Made by a program: the position numbers and the translations under genes
NCBI RefSeq assembly: GCF_964019385.1
Contig: NC_088645.1
Coordinates: 5,228,382-5,292,381 of the forward strand
Reading direction: 5' to 3'
DNA length: 64,000 bases
From: Sycon ciliatum
Taxonomy: Eukaryota > Porifera > Calcarea > Leucosolenida > Sycettidae
Notes under the pieces: model-generated
Told to the model about the DNA's origin: nothing
Database searches by the model: none
Seen by the model: the letters and a program-made list of their open reading frames with translations, nothing else
In this document: piece after piece, positions 36,205-64,000 of the stretch
How the letters are laid out: every line of letters starts with the position of its first letter
Position numbering within the stretch: position 1 is the first letter of the stretch

Positions 36205-36278
36205 TGCCACCACCAGGACTCGAACCAGGGACCCTCGCTTGTAGCCAGCGATGCTCTAACCACTGAGCTATGGTGTAG
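36205..36278 (-). tRNA. tRNA-like sequence 1 (pseudogene or SINE head)
   Basis: Reverse strand: TAGCTCAGTGGTTAGAGC (D arm, A box), stem TCGCT/AGCGA for the anticodon arm, GGTTCGAGTCC (B box), and TGGTGGCA at the 3' end pairing with part of the 5' acceptor (ACACCA). Against a functional tRNA: the anticodon loop GGCTACA lacks U33, the first two acceptor pairs fail, and the T stem has a mismatch. It has Pol III A and B boxes, so it may head a tRNA-derived SINE. Confidence 0.55.
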
Positions 36279-50602: not shown

Positions 50603-50734
50603 TTGCTATCACTCCATGACGGCCAGTACAGAGTAACAGTAAGCCTTGTGTGTGCTTTCATTACTTTTCATTGGTGCTTTAAAGGCGAGAGGCGAGCCGC
50701 TGTTTACCTGCGCACGGCTGTTTTTTGTGCGATT

Positions 50735-51608
50735 TCACGCCACTTTACAATATGGCCGCCGAAAGTCTCGATCGGGCTTCAATGGCAAGAAATTTTTTTC
50801 AAATCGCCAGAACCCAAGTAGGCCATGGTTTCCCGTGGATTTTGGTGACTGGTTAGCCCGGACAGCCTTGGGAACACGCTGATCGCGTGCGTCTTGTTTC
50901 AAGCTTTCCGCTCGTACCTCCAATGCCTGCCTTTCCTTCAAGAAACATTTGTTCTGCGTCGTGCAGCATTCGCTTCACTCTGAAGTACTCCTTGTGTCGT
51001 CGCTGTCAAACTCGGCCCCGAGAAGTCTTTCCTGGATTTTTCCCAGGCTAGATGGCAATTTTTCCAGGTAGAGGACTATCCTCTGGTTTTCTTCCCTGAG
51101 TGTCGTTGTTGTTCGCGCATGAACTTCTGAGTTCGCGATGCGGGTCAGGAACATGTTTTCTCTTGATTCGGAAGACAAATGGCGTGGCCCTTTAGTTGCT
51201 GTTGAGTCTAGAAGGCTGCTTCCTGCTGTAAATTGCTTAGTTGGCATGTGGGATATTGTAGAAGAAGACAGCAGCTGGCCAAGTGAGCTGGAAATTGTGA
51301 CATCTCTCCTATTGTGCGTTGAACGAGTACGAAATGTCCAATTTGAATATTGTACACGCGTGAACGCCAAGCAGAGGCCGATAATCACAGGGGCGGTCAA
51401 TCTCTGGACTACCAGGAGTAGTTTTGAGCAAGTTTGAACTGGAAAGACAGCTAACTGGGCAGGCCAGGAAGCCTTTCCACCCTTTTTCTCTCTCAAAAAG
51501 TCGAGTATCTCGCTCGAACGCTTTCAAAACTTTCCTCTTGGATTCGCTTCCCAAATCGTGAAACCACGCGAGGAGTAACATGAGTTTCTTCCAAAAACGC
51601 AAACTCAT
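50735..51608 (-). pseudogene. Unidentified coding-like region
   Basis: Three overlapping reverse-strand frames look partly protein-like: MSLRFWKKLMLLLAWFHDLG (51608), then a 173-codon frame ending LYLEKLPSSLGKIQERLLGA with a following acidic EFDSDDTRSTSE, then ERQALEVRAESLKQDARDQR. The last two could be a coiled coil interrupted by a shift near 50975. No domain was recognised and the order of frames suggests indels. Confidence 0.25.
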
Positions 51609-51649
51609 CCAGTATTTGCACTATTCCTACAATGTTACATAAATCGCAC

Positions 51650-53169
51650 CGAACGACGCCATATTGTTAAGTGGCTGCACTGGAACAGCCGTGTGCGACA
51701 AGAAGTTGATGTTTCGAAAGAGGTAAAACTCAAGTCGCAGTGTGAAGCAACAGGTCAAAAACTCACCTGCTTGTTATGGCGCTTTTGGTAATCGCAGAGC
51801 CATGAAATGTTGGCTCGGAGTAAAACACATCGTAGTCTCACTGTGACATATTATGTTTTCTAATCAAAATACCAAGAGAGAAAGTGAATATTGGGTCCAT
51901 TCCGGTTTTTAACCTATTTCCTATTTAAAACCGTCCCCTCTTTTGCTGCCAGAGCTCGAAGAACCAGGGGAAACGGTTCATTTTTACTGAAAACACACAT
52001 CACACTTAAAGGACGGTAACTCGGACATCTTTCCTCGAAATATTATAGTCTTCCTGGAAAGCTATTGCAAGAAGGAAAATGATGAGCTGAAGCACCAATC
52101 TTCAAAACAAAGTCGGAGACAAGCTGAAGAACCAAGAAAATTTTTCCCCTTTGTCCCATTCGACTCTCCTTGGTCGTATCGAGCGCAAAGATGTTTTAAC
52201 ACTTCTGTGAGTACATTGCTCGATTTTAACTGAGGGTGTCATGACTGCAAGCTGGGAAAAAGAGCTAAACAATGAATATCAAGTGTCCAAGCAATGTGCA
52301 AAAAATATTGGACCGCGTGTGGATATGCGTCTCTGTCGAGCGCCATAAGTCAATGAATAGTAAATCCATTAACTCAAGGATTGTTGCAAGCGCAAGCTGA
52401 GAGCATTCTTTTCGACCTACATAATATTTCGATGGTGAGAATCGAGTAAGACCTCACCACATAACAATCATCTACACGTACACCTGCCCTGCAAATTCTC
52501 ATCAACACACCATGTATATGACCACGTAATACTACAGGCTCAGAGCCTGGTCGTCATCTAGAACCCCGGTATAGTATGGGATCAGCAGTGATGGGTTACA
52601 GAGGCACTCCAGTCTCATTATCCAGATCATGTTTCCGATGGCAAAACAAAAGTATGGTAGGTGTAACAGAAGACCTCTCCAACAAGAACAACCATGCACA
52701 AGTATTATTGAGTGGAGTGGGAAATATTTTTTGGAATTTCCCAAAGCGAGGAAGACCTGATGACATCACATGTGCTTAGCTTGCCAGCAAAGGTCCACCA
52801 CAGCATATACATTTTGAAGCATTTTTAATTGAAAAGGTAGGTGCTTGGTACATTCTGAACCCTTGAATAGACCCCGTAGTAAATAGTTCCTCCCGACGAG
52901 ACTCCACCTCCAGGGAAACGAACTTGGCTAATATTTTGTGAGGATACATATGGTAAACATTTGATAGAGGAACATGTTGAAATGGTGAGGCAATACTCAT
53001 TTTTGACAATGGAGAGGGAGGTTGATAACCAATGTTGCAGGGAGAGTGAAACTGCTGTGAGTATCAACATAAAGTTCAGTTATACTCCCATCACCTGAGC
53101 ATCCAGACTAAGCACCCAGACTGACCAGTCAGACTAACCACCCAGACTGACCAGTCATACTGACCACTC
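51650..53169. other. Intergenic, no gene seen
   Basis: AT-rich ordinary sequence. A short imperfect tandem of CAGACTGACCAGTCA lies near 53105-53160, and a 7-bp palindrome CAGGCTC-A-GAGCCTG at 52537-52551. Confidence 0.35.
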
Positions 53170-56989: not shown

Positions 56990-57112
56990 AGGCGGAATTC
57001 AAGTGCCGGATTAAAGCATAGAAAATAAACTGAAAAAATCCGTTTTGCCAGAAAGTGTGCTGGTTTACAAGGGTGCTGAATAAACAAGTGCCGGATAAGC
57101 GAGGTCTGACTG
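56990..57112 (-). mobile_element. Tigger/pogo-like terminus
   Basis: On the reverse strand the segment starts TACAGTCAGACCTCGCTTAT then CCGGCACTTG, a Tigger-type terminus, with a second AATCCGGCACTTGAATTCC near 57000. The other end was not found; the satellite begins directly at the outer TA. Confidence 0.6.
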
Positions 57113-59570
57113 TACTATGATCATACTGTACACTCTAGTACTATGATCATACTGTACACTCTAGTACTATGATCATACTGTACACTCTAGTACTATGATC
57201 ATACTGTACACTCTAGTACTATGATCATACTGTACACTCTAGTACTATGATCATACTGTACACTCTAGTACTATGATCATACTGTACACTCTAGTACTAT
57301 GATCATACTGTACACTCTAGTACTATGATCATACTGTACACTCTAGTACTATGATCATACTGTACACTCTAGTACTATGATCATACTGTACACTCTAGTA
57401 CTATGATCATACTGTACACTCTAGTACTATGATCATACTGTACACTCTAGTACTATGATCATACTGTACACTCTAGTACTATGATCATACTGTACACTCT
57501 AGTACTCTGATCATACTGTACACTCTAGTACTATGATCATACTGTACACTCTAGTACTATGATCATACTGTACACTCTAGTACTATGATCATACTGTACA
57601 CTCTAGTACTATGATCATACTGTACACTCTAGTACTAAGATCATACTGTACACTCTAGTACTATGATCATACTGTACACTCTAGTACTATGATCATACTG
57701 TACACTCTAGTACTATGATCATACTGTTCACTCTAGTACTATGATCATACTGTACACTCTAGTACTATGATCATACTGTACACTCTAGTACTATGATCAT
57801 ACTGTACACTCTAGTACTATGATCATACTGTTCACTCTAGTACTATGATCATACTGTACACTCTAGTACTATGATCATACTGTACACTCTAGTACTATGA
57901 TCATACTGTACACTCTAGTACTATGATCATACTGTACACTCTAGTACTATGATCATACTGTACACTCTAGTACTATGATCATACTGTACACTCTAGTACC
58001 ATGATCATACTGTACACTCTAGTACTATGATCATACTGTACACTCTAGTACTATGATCATACTGTACACTCTAGTACTATGATCATACTGTACACTCTAG
58101 TACTATGATCATACTGTACACTCTAGTACTATGATCATACTGTATACTCTAGTACTATGATCATACTGTACACTCTAGTACTATGATCATACTGTACACT
58201 CTAGTACTAAGATCATACTGTACACTCTAGTACTATGATCATACTGTACACTCTAGTACTATGATCATACTGTACACTCTAGTACTATGATCATACTGTA
58301 CACTCTAGTACTATGATCATACTGTACACTCTAGTACTATGATCATACTGTACACTCTAGTACTATGATCATACTGTACACTCTAGTACTATGATCATAC
58401 TGTACACTCTAGTACTATGATCATACTGTACACTCTAGTACTATGATCATACTGTTCACTCTAGTACTATGATCATACTGTACACTCTAGTACTATGATC
58501 ATACTGTACACTCTAGTACTAAGATCATACTGTACACTCTAGTACTATGATCATACTGTACACTCTAGTACTATGATCATACTGTACACTCTAGTACTAT
58601 GATCATACTGTACACTCTAGTACTATGATCATACTGTACACTCTAGTACTATGATCATACTGTACACTCTAGTACTATGATCATACTGTACACTCTAGTA
58701 CTATGATCATACTGTACACTCTAGTACTATGATCATACTGTACACTCTAGTACTATGATCATACTGTACACTCTAGTACTATGATCATACTGTACACTCT
58801 AGTACTAAGATCATACTGTACACTCTAGTACTATGATCATACTGTACACTCTAGTACTATGATCATACTGTACACTCTAGTACTATGATCATACTGTACA
58901 CTCTGGTACTATGATCATACTGTACACTCTAGTACTATGATCATACTGTACACTCTAGTACTATGATCATACTGTACACTCTAGTACTATGATCATACTG
59001 TACACTCTAGTACTATGATCATACTGTACACTCTAGTACTAAGATCATACTGTACACTCTAGTACTATGATCATACTGTACACTCTAGTACTATGATCAT
59101 ACTGTACACTCTAGTACTATGATCATACTGTACACTCTGGTACTATGATCATACTGTACACTCTAGTACTATGATCATACTGTACACTCTAGTACTATGA
59201 TCATACTGTACACTCTAGTACTATGATCATACTGTACACTCTAGTACTATGATCATACTGTTCACTCTAGCACTATGATCATACTGTACACTCTAGTACT
59301 ATGATCATACTGTTCACTCTAGTACTATGATCATACTGTACACTCTAGTACTATGATCATACTGTACACTCTAGTACTATGATCATACTGTTCACTCTAG
59401 TACTATGATCATACTGTACACTCTAGTTCTATGATCATACTGTACACTCTAGTACTATGATCATACTGTACACTCTAGTACTATGATCATACTGTACACT
59501 CTAGTACTATGATCATACTGTACACTCTAGTACCATGATCATACTGTACACTCTAGTACTATGATCATAC
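57113..59570. repeat. Satellite array, 26-bp unit, about 94 copies
   Basis: The unit is TACTATGATCATACTGTACA plus CTCTAG. Each unit contains two palindromes (TATGATCATA and TAGTACTA). Copies are almost identical; variants are CTAAGATC (57636, 58207, 58520, 58806, 59041), TGTTCACTC and CTGGTACT (58902, 59137). The AAG and CTGG variants recur at the same 96-bp distance in two consecutive 234-bp blocks, so units have been duplicated nine at a time. It starts at the end of a Tigger-like terminus and ends 538 bp before the RAG1-like gene. Confidence 0.95.
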
Positions 59571-60107
59571 ACGGCTGTCTCAGTGTACATGAATCCGCGC
59601 ATGGAAGTACGGGTATGAGTACAGACGGCAAGGCCGTGAATGTGGGGAAACCCCTCACTCAAATTCAAAAAAATTCTCAATTGCACTTGACGCGACCACT
59701 GATATCTGTCGGTGTCGAGACCATTCTGAGCTGCACATAACAACAAGAATCTGTTCAACTAGTCCTATGCATGCAGGATAACGGTACCTTGATGCGGACG
59801 AGCCGAAAAAACTGCTTCTTTCCCGATTCAGCTGTTTCTTTGCTGAGTTCGTTCTTGATCAGTGCTACGTAGTGACAGTTGAGTAACGATTTCGATGTGA
59901 TTTTGAAGACGCCTGCATACCCTACCGGAGCAAACGCCGCTGCTTTGGCAGGTTTTTGAAGGCAGAATCATCCTTCGTCTCCACGCTGAGAAAAGTTCGT
60001 CGTGTTCTGATGGGCAGATCCATGTTCTTGGCCGCTTATTCAAAGGTACTTTCTGTTGTTTTTGAATTTTTTCATATTTGTGTGCATAGGTTCTGTAGAG
60101 TGTTACG
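59571..60107. promoter_or_regulatory. 5' flank of the RAG1-like gene with possible leader intron
   Basis: No open frame. A possible short leader intron runs from AAAGGTACTT (donor at about 60048) to TTTGTGTGCATAG (acceptor at 60089), 19 bases before the ATG. No TATA box or RSS/Transib-like CACAGTG or CACAATG terminus was found here. Confidence 0.3.
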
Positions 60108-63100
60108 ATGAGTTCTACTCTTGATCATGCATTTCATGTGGAGCATGTAAATTCCCTGTGTCGTTTGGGTGGCTGCAAATTACCCACAAATCGCAAAGGC
60201 CACAAGTCATGGAGTGCTACTACTTACACCGTCAAGGAACACTCCCTTGATATATTCCGTGCGTTCAACGTTAAAGTTGAAGAGGATCAAGAAGGAGTGC
60301 ATCCCAATCAATTTTGCAAATCGTGTTTTGATTTTTTGCATTCGACCCTGAAGAAAGGCTCATGCAATGCAGGTGGCTGTGGGCAAAGTTTGCCAACTGT
60401 TCACGAATGGTCTGCACATACAGACAGCAAATGTAGCACCTGCACTCGCATTGTTGCAAGCAGAAAAGGTGGACGGCAAAAGAAGGCAACGAAAACGATT
60501 CGCGGCGCACGCATGACACATGGTGACAGTGATGTGTCTACTTGCACCAATGCTGTTGACATTGACCAAGAGAAGGTCGCAGCTCTGGTCACTGACAACT
60601 ATGTTTCTTGTTTGCCTCTGTCGCCGGACCGCTTCACGTTTGTGCCGAGCGCACTCATTTGCCACATTTGCGGTCTTGTTGCAAATCGTGCTGTGCAATC
60701 TCCCTGCTGCAGTAAATTAGTTTGTGCTGAATGTATTGTGGGCTGGCTGGAAACCTCTTTGTCCTGCCACTCCTGCAAAAAGGTTGTTCTCTTGTCGTCA
60801 TACCAATCTGTACATCCGTTTGCTCGGGTGACGTTGTCTGAACTTGTCCTGTCCTGTGACAATGCTGGTGAATCAGTGCTCGAGGGTTGTCCAGCCAGAG
60901 TCACATTAGCATCTTTGCAGAGCCATGTTGCCGAGTGTCCATTCGCCAAACACCCGCCACCCAAGCGCTACTTGACGCTTTCCTCCACCGTGGCAACTGT
61001 GTTGGCTGCACCACATGACCTTTTGCAAGGTGATGTTGCTTCCAAGCTCCTTAACAGGCTAGTTGAAGCTCGAGCGGAGGATGGCCGACTTGAGCAGCGG
61101 ACGCGTGGCAGCACATCACTGTGGCACAGGGTTCCTGTGGCAAGGGTGTCATCTTCAGATGCCTCATCGTCCACGCTGCGGCGAAGAGAGAGCCTACTCG
61201 ATGGCATCCAGCAGGCAGCATGCGGAGGAGCTAAAGGCAAGGAAGCGCAGAGCGTTCACGCTCTGCAGTCCCTTCGCCGAAGCCAACGGGAAGACCTTCT
61301 CCGTGAGGCCGGCTTGCTACCGGAGGGGCTCCAGAAGGGCATCGGTCTTGCCATCAAGTCTGACCTCCAGCTACCCTGGAATGGGCTGCGCAAGCTTCGC
61401 CGATATTTGAGATTGTGTGGACTGTCGCTGGAGTCGGAAAGAGAGATGCGGAAGCAGTTGTCCGAGGAGCTGCCGTTTCCCCTTGTCGCCAAGGAAGTTC
61501 CCCTTTTGGACAGTTCTGGCACTGTCATCATGAGCCCTGTTGTCTGCTTTGACAATCTGGTGGAGCTAGTTCTTCACTTTGTCGAGTTGAATGAGGAAGC
61601 TGGCACACTTGTCTGGGAAGGTGCCTGCCCAGAAGATGAGCTTTGGGTGAAGATAGGTGGAGACCATGGAGGGCATTCATTCAAGCTTTGCTTCCAGCTT
61701 GTGAATGTCCTCCACCCCAACTCCCTTAGCAACACAGTTCCTTTCTTGGTCTTTGCTGCGAAAGACTCTCCGTCAAACCTAGCCACGGCGTTTCAACCGT
61801 ATGCAGAGCAAGTCGACAGACTCCGCAGCTGTTCTTGGAAGGGAAAGAAAATCAAAGTTTGCCTCTTCGGGGACTACGATTTTATGATGAAATTGTATGG
61901 CTTGTCTGGAGCAAGTGGAGTCAGGCCTTGTCTGTTCTGTCTGGCAACAAAGAAAGACATGCAACCATCCCCTACCACCCCCTTCCCCGACAGAACGCTC
62001 GACATGCTGAAAGAGGACTTGGGTCGTTTTGTGGAATCTGGCTCGAGGCTGCAGAACGCCAAACAGTTCAATAATGTTATTCGCCCACAAATCCTGCCAA
62101 TTGAACTGGATGATGTATGTGTCCCCATCCTGCACCTCGACCTGGGAATCTTTCCCTTGCTTTTTGAGGCTATGGTCCGAGATGCAGAGGAGATTGACCT
62201 GATGCTAGCCAGAGAAAGCACAGACACATCTTCGAGCTCCACATTCAACGATGCAGCTAAGATGCAAAGAGAGTTGTGGGTACTCTTAGCAGAGAAGGCA
62301 CAGCAAGAGCAGCAGCTTTATGTCGCACAGACACAGCTACAATGGGCAGTGCTAAATGCAGCTCAGGCCATGCAAGCCAATCATGTGGCAGAAGCACAGC
62401 ACGCAGGACTAGCTGCTCAGCTACAACAGCACTGGGCAGCGCAGCAGCAGCAGCTCAACGACATGAATGTGCGAATATCTAGTTTGGAGGAACGGCTTGT
62501 GAATGCAAAGGTTAAGAATGGTCCTTGTGCTTCATCATTCGAGCCAGTATTGGTGAAGCACAGGATAGATCGGCAGGCCTATCACTCGGGTGCTTTCGTT
62601 GGCAACCACATCAACAAAGCACTACAGCCATCAGTGACACAACAGATTGTGTCTGCTCCGTTGACAGTGGTTGCTTCTTTTGTAAATCCGGATGGTGCCT
62701 CCTTTGCTCCCACGCAGGCACAGCATCAACTACTGAAAGCTGCCGAAGAATGCTCCGCTCGATATGCGTCTCTCTTTGGCAAGTACGCTAGTTGCAGAGC
62801 CATATTCGCATCGACTATCACTGCAGACGACGATATGGTCAAGAGCTTGGAGGAGAAGATCGTATCCTTCATGGCGAACGTGCGGTCGGAGGTTGTTGTG
62901 CGGCACAAGCGTCCTGTCACGCCTAAGTTGCATCTGCTTGAGTGTCACCTCGTTCCTTGTGTTAAGAGATTCGGCATGGCACTTGGTGCTCTCGGAGAGC
63001 AAGGCGGTGAGTCAATCCACCACAAGTTTAACCTGCTGCGAGCAACACTGCAGAATACGAACAAGGATGTCGACCGTCTCCGGACTCTAGTGGCTCAGTA

Positions 63101-63173
63101 CCTGACGACAGCGCTGCCAACCCACAACAAGCTGATCGTGCCAGCTGCCAAGCGCAAGAAATCAGCTAGCTAG
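60108..63173 (+). CDS. Full-length RAG1-like DDE recombinase/transposase
   Basis: An uninterrupted 1021-codon frame (ATG 60108, stop TAG 63171-63173). N-terminus: C18-x4-C23, HPNQFC-x2-C (H65, C70, C73), H78, then HEWSAHTDSKCSTC (C109, C112) and a basic stretch, following the zinc-rich N-terminal region of vertebrate RAG1. RING: C185, C188, C201, C206, C209, C220, C223, with Lys at 203 where RAG1 has His; then a C250/C261/H273/C277 finger, as in RAG1. Core: KIGGDHGG (D519), LFGDYDFMMKLYGLSGASG (D589), PCLFC (C608, C611), HLLECH (H942, H947), GEQGGES (E964, E968). D589-C608-C611 spacing (19 and 22) equals RAG1 D708-C727-C730, and H942-H947 spacing equals RAG1 H937-H942. Residues 718-800 are a Gln/Ala-rich coiled coil. 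Most like RAG1-type transposases such as Aplysia N-RAG-TP. It could be an active transposase or a domesticated gene; no RAG2-like partner is seen. Confidence 0.9.
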   Translation: MSSTLDHAFHVEHVNSLCRLGGCKLPTNRKGHKSWSATTYTVKEHSLDIFRAFNVKVEEDQEGVHPNQFCKSCFDFLHSTLKKGSCNAGGCGQSLPTVHEWSAHTDSKCSTCTRIVASRKGGRQKKATKTIRGARMTHGDSDVSTCTNAVDIDQEKVAALVTDNYVSCLPLSPDRFTFVPSALICHICGLVANRAVQSPCCSKLVCAECIVGWLETSLSCHSCKKVVLLSSYQSVHPFARVTLSELVLSCDNAGESVLEGCPARVTLASLQSHVAECPFAKHPPPKRYLTLSSTVATVLAAPHDLLQGDVASKLLNRLVEARAEDGRLEQRTRGSTSLWHRVPVARVSSSDASSSTLRRRESLLDGIQQAACGGAKGKEAQSVHALQSLRRSQREDLLREAGLLPEGLQKGIGLAIKSDLQLPWNGLRKLRRYLRLCGLSLESEREMRKQLSEELPFPLVAKEVPLLDSSGTVIMSPVVCFDNLVELVLHFVELNEEAGTLVWEGACPEDELWVKIGGDHGGHSFKLCFQLVNVLHPNSLSNTVPFLVFAAKDSPSNLATAFQPYAEQVDRLRSCSWKGKKIKVCLFGDYDFMMKLYGLSGASGVRPCLFCLATKKDMQPSPTTPFPDRTLDMLKEDLGRFVESGSRLQNAKQFNNVIRPQILPIELDDVCVPILHLDLGIFPLLFEAMVRDAEEIDLMLARESTDTSSSSTFNDAAKMQRELWVLLAEKAQQEQQLYVAQTQLQWAVLNAAQAMQANHVAEAQHAGLAAQLQQHWAAQQQQLNDMNVRISSLEERLVNAKVKNGPCASSFEPVLVKHRIDRQAYHSGAFVGNHINKALQPSVTQQIVSAPLTVVASFVNPDGASFAPTQAQHQLLKAAEECSARYASLFGKYASCRAIFASTITADDDMVKSLEEKIVSFMANVRSEVVVRHKRPVTPKLHLLECHLVPCVKRFGMALGALGEQGGESIHHKFNLLRATLQNTNKDVDRLRTLVAQYLTTALPTHNKLIVPAAKRKKSAS

Positions 63174-64000
63174 TGACTTGGCAGAGTTCGTAGCAGCAGG
63201 GCCGGACAGCTCCAGGATCCAGACTTGGTGCAGGTAATTCAATTGTGTTGCTAGTAGTTCTGACATGTTCTCTTGATTCATATGAATGTTGTGTATCCAC
63301 AATTTACAAGGTAGGTGAAACTTGTGCAGGTAAGTGGTATCCACACATTTGAAGAAATGAATAAATCACTGCAGTATTTTTACTTTGTGAGGCGCTGCAA
63401 AATATCACCTTGCTGGACATACTGGCATCCAAGCTCGGAACATGGCTGGTTAGCATGCAAGGTACGTAAACCATGGTCGCTCCTTCAAGAACGCACTGCA
63501 GGCTGGAGCAGGTGAGTCGAAACTGCAGAAACTCTAATTAAATCTAAATTTACAAGTTCAACTAGACTGGCTGCGATTGGAAATTCGACACAAGGTACGT
63601 AGAAGCTCAGCTTCAGCGGTTTCCGTGTGTGATGCTTGAGCAGGTTAGTCACGTCCACAAGGTGAGGTATACTAGTATTGACGCCATCATCGCCACTTGG
63701 CGAGAACGCAATCGTAACCCAATCGTATAATCATTCTGATTCTAAAATAAATAATTGTCTAAGGTGGAACTGGGGCGCTCTTTCAAGAGCGGGTGGCAGG
63801 TGGGACAGGTAAGTCACTTCTACAAAATCGAACCAATGAATAGAGCACTTCACAGACATACTTCTGGGGAACTTGCCTTCTAAAGCTCAAAAACAAAGCT
63901 GATAATGAAGCGAGCTAGCTTCGAATGAGCCTACAAGAAAAAGAACATTATTCAAAAAACGCCACAAAACACGATCGCAAGTACGGTCGCAGCATGACGC
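63174..64000. other. 3' flank of the RAG1-like gene with repeated splice-donor-like motifs
   Basis: No long open frame. The motif GCAGGT(A/G/T)A(A/G)T or a close relative recurs at 63230, 63326, 63508, 63640 and 63806, alternating with CAAGGTACGT or CAAGGTAGGT (63307, 63459, 63590, 63658). The intervals of roughly 100-180 bp suggest a decayed tandem unit, or small exons. No clear terminal repeat was found. Confidence 0.4.

Follow-up and report, generated by a model that had tools for sequence, protein, structure and literature searches.

N-RAG-TP of Aplysia was reportedly described by Panchin and Moroz in 2008. By the second-hand account given in part of PMC8355894, it is a RAG1 N-terminal-like protein within a transposon, a trait that the element described here shares. 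Among the Chapaev transposons, passages of Kapitonov and Koonin (2015; PMC4411706) report a Chapa domain followed by a RING in two subgroups, and state that a RAG1-like N-terminus, a RING and an Asp-Asp-Glu (DDE) core travel together in some of these elements. The canonical Transib, in the same passages, consists of a core domain only, and makes 5-bp target duplications (PMC7204232, in part). Here we describe a 4518-bp element in a 64,000-nucleotide stretch of the genome of the calcareous sponge Sycon ciliatum (contig NC_088645.1, positions 5228382-5292381; hereafter the window). We conclude with high confidence that its long open frame encodes the transposase of a complete and apparently recently mobile Chapaev (CMC) DNA transposon that has the full RAG1 layout. 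This is a known kind of element, of which the present one is a new member. Chapaev is a known sister group of RAG1, which cleaves the antibody genes of vertebrates, and the window protein is not RAG1 itself.

Compared by description only, the sponge element shares with the Chapaevs in those passages of PMC4411706 the Chapa domain, the RING, the DUF1280-type DDE core, CAC...GTG ends and mostly 4-bp duplications. It differs from them in its calcareous sponge host, in the presence of five lineages each with copies at least 99.0% identical, and in having inner boxes that differ between the two ends. With RAG1 and RAGL/ProtoRAG it has in common the N-terminal zinc region, the RING and finger unit, the fold of the core, the C(2)C and H(4)H pairs and the D-D-E residues. 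In contrast to them, the element has no room for a RAG2-like partner and its duplications are mostly of 4 rather than 5 bp, while the protein has a long helical hairpin in its core, and the core belongs to a different sequence family.

The element, its borders and its copies

The frame runs without interruption for 1021 codons, from an ATG to a TAG (60108-63173, + strand), as a preliminary description of the locus had reported. The 538-Mb assembly was searched for copies, and at least 51 matched stretches were found at unlinked places, of which 34 (counted by hand) span at least 900 query residues without a stop. The substitution rates, a check proposed earlier, give a ratio of non-synonymous to synonymous change (dN/dS) of 0.098 between lineages A and B (synonymous distance, dS, 1.58), falling to 0.041 in residues 401-700 of the core; from the window lineage to lineages other than B, dS is saturated. 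The long stop-free stretches and the low dN/dS place the frame far beyond chance.

Over about 4.5 kb, the window copy is 99.93, 99.96 and 99.58% identical to copies L010, L011 and L012, with 1, 2 and 10 coding substitutions respectively in the 1021 codons. This near-identity breaks off sharply at both borders of the element; L013 has the same left border but has lost its right end. A 90-bp query from the right end finds 18 places, ten of them at 96-100% identity, and within lineages B to E the copies are likewise at least 99.0% identical. The protein P0002, which bears a gene label in the style of Sycon, is 98% identical to the window protein, and Sycon ciliatum LOC135819357 is a named homologue.

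The right end of the window copy, which lies past the end of the window, was read in locus L009. The tips of the element are CACGGCTG...CAGCCGTG. The element is inserted in a 26-bp minisatellite, with about 95 copies before it (57112-59570) and roughly 1.5 kb more of the array on its far side. This array allowed an empty-site test: when the element and one CATA are removed, 274 of 276 flanking bases fall into one phase of the repeat, compared with 167 of 280 when both CATA are kept.

Duplications were then compared between copies. In the first 20 loci fetched with flanks, 18 had both ends, with an exact 4-bp duplication in 13, a 6-bp one in L010 and none in four (L014, L015, L016, L022); L013 and L021 had lost one or both ends. 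Eight further loci added five with both ends, the duplication being 4 bp in L029 and L034, 5 bp in L031 and L032, and absent in L030. For L029, which has two right-end sites, the one giving a duplication was chosen. L033 and L036 lacked one end, and L035 was set aside, its sole left-end pattern being 1.8 kb from the frame. Altogether, the 23 copies with both ends comprise 15 with a 4-bp duplication, two with 5 bp, one with 6 bp and five with none. Passages of PMC4079192 give 3-4 bp duplications and CAC...GTG ends as hallmarks of Chapaev. The ends read 5'-CAC...GTG-3' in all ten lineages aligned, a count for which the ends were found using CAC-starting patterns, the sharp homology border of the window copy being the independent part.

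The intact frame, the inverted repeats, the mostly 4-bp duplications, the near-identical unlinked copies and the purifying selection all support a mobile Chapaev. Recent activity had been suggested previously, and the near-identical copies, the ends and the target duplication are indeed signs of recent movement; as far as can be read from sequence, the window copy would have moved recently.

Domains, fold and conserved residues of the transposase

Two Pfam families match the protein: RAG1_imp_bd (PF12560) at residues 6-143 (E 8.5e-9) and DUF1280 (PF06918) at residues 417-574 (E 1.9e-15; 57.5 bits, cut-off 25), the latter being the Chapaev transposase core (PMC3985635, in part). Conservation was counted in a 42-row alignment of the window protein and 41 homologues, several of them partial, so that the denominators below are rows with a letter in that column. 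All 42 rows have DUF1280 and 27 have RAG1_imp_bd, with the caveat that several are partial. A profile of seven relatives aligns its positions 6-278 with RAG1 98-375 (E 3.3e-21), and the N-terminal profile by itself matches the RAG1 N-terminal structure 21wb (E 4.5e-8). Both the RAG1 N-terminal zinc region and the RING unit are thus present. A second collinear piece of the profile, weak in its own right (E 370 alone), places H942/H947 and E968 on the RAG1 histidines and GNES, a link that is only suggestive. For the fold, the top PDB matches are the cores of RAG1, ProtoRAG (BbRAGL) and Transib, with RAG1 the best structural match; the helical hairpin is matched in the structural list by coiled coils of other proteins. 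The preliminary description had named two outcomes that would refute it, a failure of RAG1 profiles to match (N-terminal domain or core) and a predicted structure without an RNase H fold; neither occurred.

The residues named in that description are all at the positions given, and most are nearly invariant. In the N-terminal zinc region the counts are C18 30/30, H65 31/31, C70 31/31, C73 31/31, C109 31/33 and C112 32/33, and the eight cysteines of the RING region range from 30/33 to 32/32. C23 does not fit this pattern: it is a cysteine in only 6 of 30 rows and so is not a zinc ligand common to the whole family. In the core, C608 and C611 are each kept in 41 of 42 rows, as are the first two acidic residues, and further on the counts are H942 27/28, H947 26/26 and E964 26/26.

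D519 is likely to be the first catalytic aspartate, the expected equivalent of RAG1 D600, and D589 the second. The pairing of D589 with RAG1 D708 comes from its equal spacing to the C-x2-C pair, while the hhalign printout has gaps at D589 and does not pair the two. E968 is the likely catalytic glutamate, the expected counterpart of RAG1 E962 (a number found in PDB titles), and E964 is conserved to the same degree. The other RAG1 residues referred to are D600, D708, C727, C730, H937 and H942, numbered in part as in the preliminary description. D519 and D589 are 70 residues apart; the corresponding distance in RAG1 is 108 on that numbering. Between the second aspartate and the glutamate, C608-x2-C611 and H942-x4-H947 form the C(2)C and H(4)H pairs of Chapaev, a motif whose definition is given in passages of PMC12730594 and PMC4079192.

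An AT-hook-type motif, GGR-x-x-K, is found after the N-terminal cysteines (residues 120-127; 60465-60488). It recalls the GGRPR of the RAG1 nonamer-binding domain, which has a different place.

By this arrangement, the N-terminal and pre-core domains would bind the two ends of the element, and a dimer of the transposase would pair them. Cutting, by D519, D589 and E968, would proceed as in RAG1 and Transib, after which the freed ends would join target DNA across a 4-bp stagger. The RING probably regulates the transposase through ubiquitin ligase activity, the role that the RING of RAG1 has.

Table 1. Coordinates of the element and its parts, in window positions.
Feature	Position	Strand	Remarks
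Chapaev transposon, 4518 bp	59570..64000 in window	+	right inverted repeat in the final 87 bp, past window end
Left copy of 4-bp target site duplication CATA	59566..59569	.	right copy past window end; empty-site test
Left terminal inverted repeat CACGGCTG	59570..59577	+	
5' leader	59570..60107	+	77% identical, lineage A vs B
Left-end inner box GGGTATGAG, element positions 42-50	59611..59619	+	pattern in 7/10 lineages
RAG1 N-terminal zinc region (Chapa domain), residues 6-118	60123..60461	+	PF12560, profile and structure-profile matches
RING and C2HC finger, residues 170-285	60615..60962	+	
RNase H-fold DDE core, Chapaev type, residues 405-1015	61320..63152	+	
Codon of D519, likely first catalytic aspartate	61662..61664	+	D in 41/42 rows; in model strand 511-521
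Codon of D589, likely second catalytic aspartate	61872..61874	+	D in 41/42 rows; right after model strand 580-588; 19 residues ahead of C608
Long helical hairpin, residues 709-804, between second D and E	62232..62519	+	model helices 711-754 and 759-798
Codon of E968, likely catalytic glutamate	63009..63011	+	26/26 rows; weak collinear profile stretch puts GGES on RAG1 GNES

Other readings of the locus

The element might instead be a direct member of the RAG1 lineage, that is, a RAG-like (RAGL/ProtoRAG) transposon or its relic. This would suit the full RAG1 layout of N-terminal zinc region, RING and core, the fact that RAG1 is the best structural match, and the 5-bp duplications of two copies. 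However, part of PMC7204232 gives RAGL duplications as 5 bp invariably in protostomes and almost always in deuterostomes, whereas here they are mostly 4 bp (4 bp in the window copy, 5 bp in 2/23). The core family is DUF1280, and the RAG1 core model PF12940 gave no match up to E 10, either with the window protein or with its C-terminal part. The sole place in the genome found to match PF12940 is L037 (E 1e-6; 27.6 bits, cut-off 25), itself a Chapaev-like fragment; seven candidates were scored, and this is hence a lower bound. RAG2 is about 500 residues long, and outside the frame the element has only 538 and 914 non-coding bases, too few for a RAG2-like gene. Past 63173 in the window, neither strand has the start of an open reading frame of 80 or more residues, no kelch search having been made. 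Membership of the RAG1 lineage is thus very improbable. What survives of the earlier label "RAG1-like" is that one frame holds an N-terminus and a catalytic fold related to those of RAG1; the DUF1280 core, the mostly 4-bp duplication, the lack of room for RAG2 and the missing PF12940 match set the protein apart from the RAG1/ProtoRAG type.

It had also been suggested that the open frame reflects selection for a role in the host. Recruitment of the window copy as a host gene would account for the intact frame and low dN/dS, but purifying selection between lineages is equally expected of a mobile transposase. Moreover, the copy retains both ends and a target duplication, is inserted within a minisatellite array and has near-identical copies at other sites. 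Host recruitment is not supported, and we rate it as slightly less probable still than a RAGL origin.

Some observations do weigh against the reading as a complete, recently mobile Chapaev. There is no duplication in five of the 23 copies, and in three it is 5 or 6 bp (L010 6, L031 5, L032 5). Homology of the core to RAG1 is argued from the fold, from a profile alignment without clean pairing of D519 and D589, and from the single fragment L037. The end boxes described below may be promoter elements instead of transposase sites, and the mobility of the element is deduced from features of its DNA.

The preliminary description placed the frame amid dead elements, which fits the rest of the window, where broken retrotransposon-like frames were recognised by eye, no family search having been made. 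A tRNA-like sequence with anticodon CTA (36205-36277, - strand) lies within a 281-bp tandem duplication and is perhaps a tRNA-derived repeat.

Differences between the ends, and their meaning

The ends were compared in ten lineages, represented by one copy each (L009, L014, L019, L022, L026, L028, L029, L031, L032 and L034), whose proteins are 39-77% identical to the window protein. L030 was left out, its ends being almost equal to those of L028. Beyond the shared tip CACGGCTG, the left end has GGGTNYGAG at positions 42-50, and the right end has the box AAGATGGCG at positions 29-37. The pattern GGG[TA].[CT]GAG is found at left-end positions 35-60 in seven of the ten lineages and at the right end in none (background 0.0003 per window), and A.ATGGC at right-end positions 25-40 in nine (ATGGC in all ten; background 0.00235 per window). 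In L034 a box of the right type stands on the left end. There is some circularity in the test: six lineages gave the first sight of the boxes, and the final patterns were written once all ten ends had been seen; in the four lineages added later (L029, L031, L032, L034) the right box is found in 4/4 and the left box in 2/4. Lineages A and B are relatives, and are hence not fully independent in these counts. Between them, identity is 77% in the 5' leader, 87% in the last 60 bases, 57% in the remaining 3' leader and 42% at fourfold sites (n=379).

The left-end box of L026 (element positions about 41-55, in the left ends of L026 and L019) reads GGTTCGAGTCC, identical to the RNA polymerase III B-box consensus.

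A 981-bp element at 50713-51693 has the same tips as the Chapaev (CACGGCTGTT...AACAGCCGTG), is flanked by a duplicated 4-bp TGCG and carries an ATGGC box at each end; it is a probable non-autonomous relative with symmetric ends, at odds with a strict two-signal rule. That the transposase reads the two ends as two different signals is a tentative idea, which we consider unlikely. If it were true that a RAG1-like transposase must pair unlike ends, then an asymmetry like that of the 12/23 rule would predate RAG, and the family, being mobile, would offer a living model of how symmetric Transib ends gave way to paired RAG signals.

Accounts of the origin of RAG1 usually invoke a hypothetical ancestor in which the N-terminal domain, the RING and the core were combined. 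Chapaevs of the RAG1 layout are known from sequence, and one sponge genome here holds several lineages of them with near-identical open copies. With such copies, this sister branch to the V(D)J recombinase could be studied experimentally, and the difference between the ends would likewise allow tests of how asymmetric signal pairing arose.
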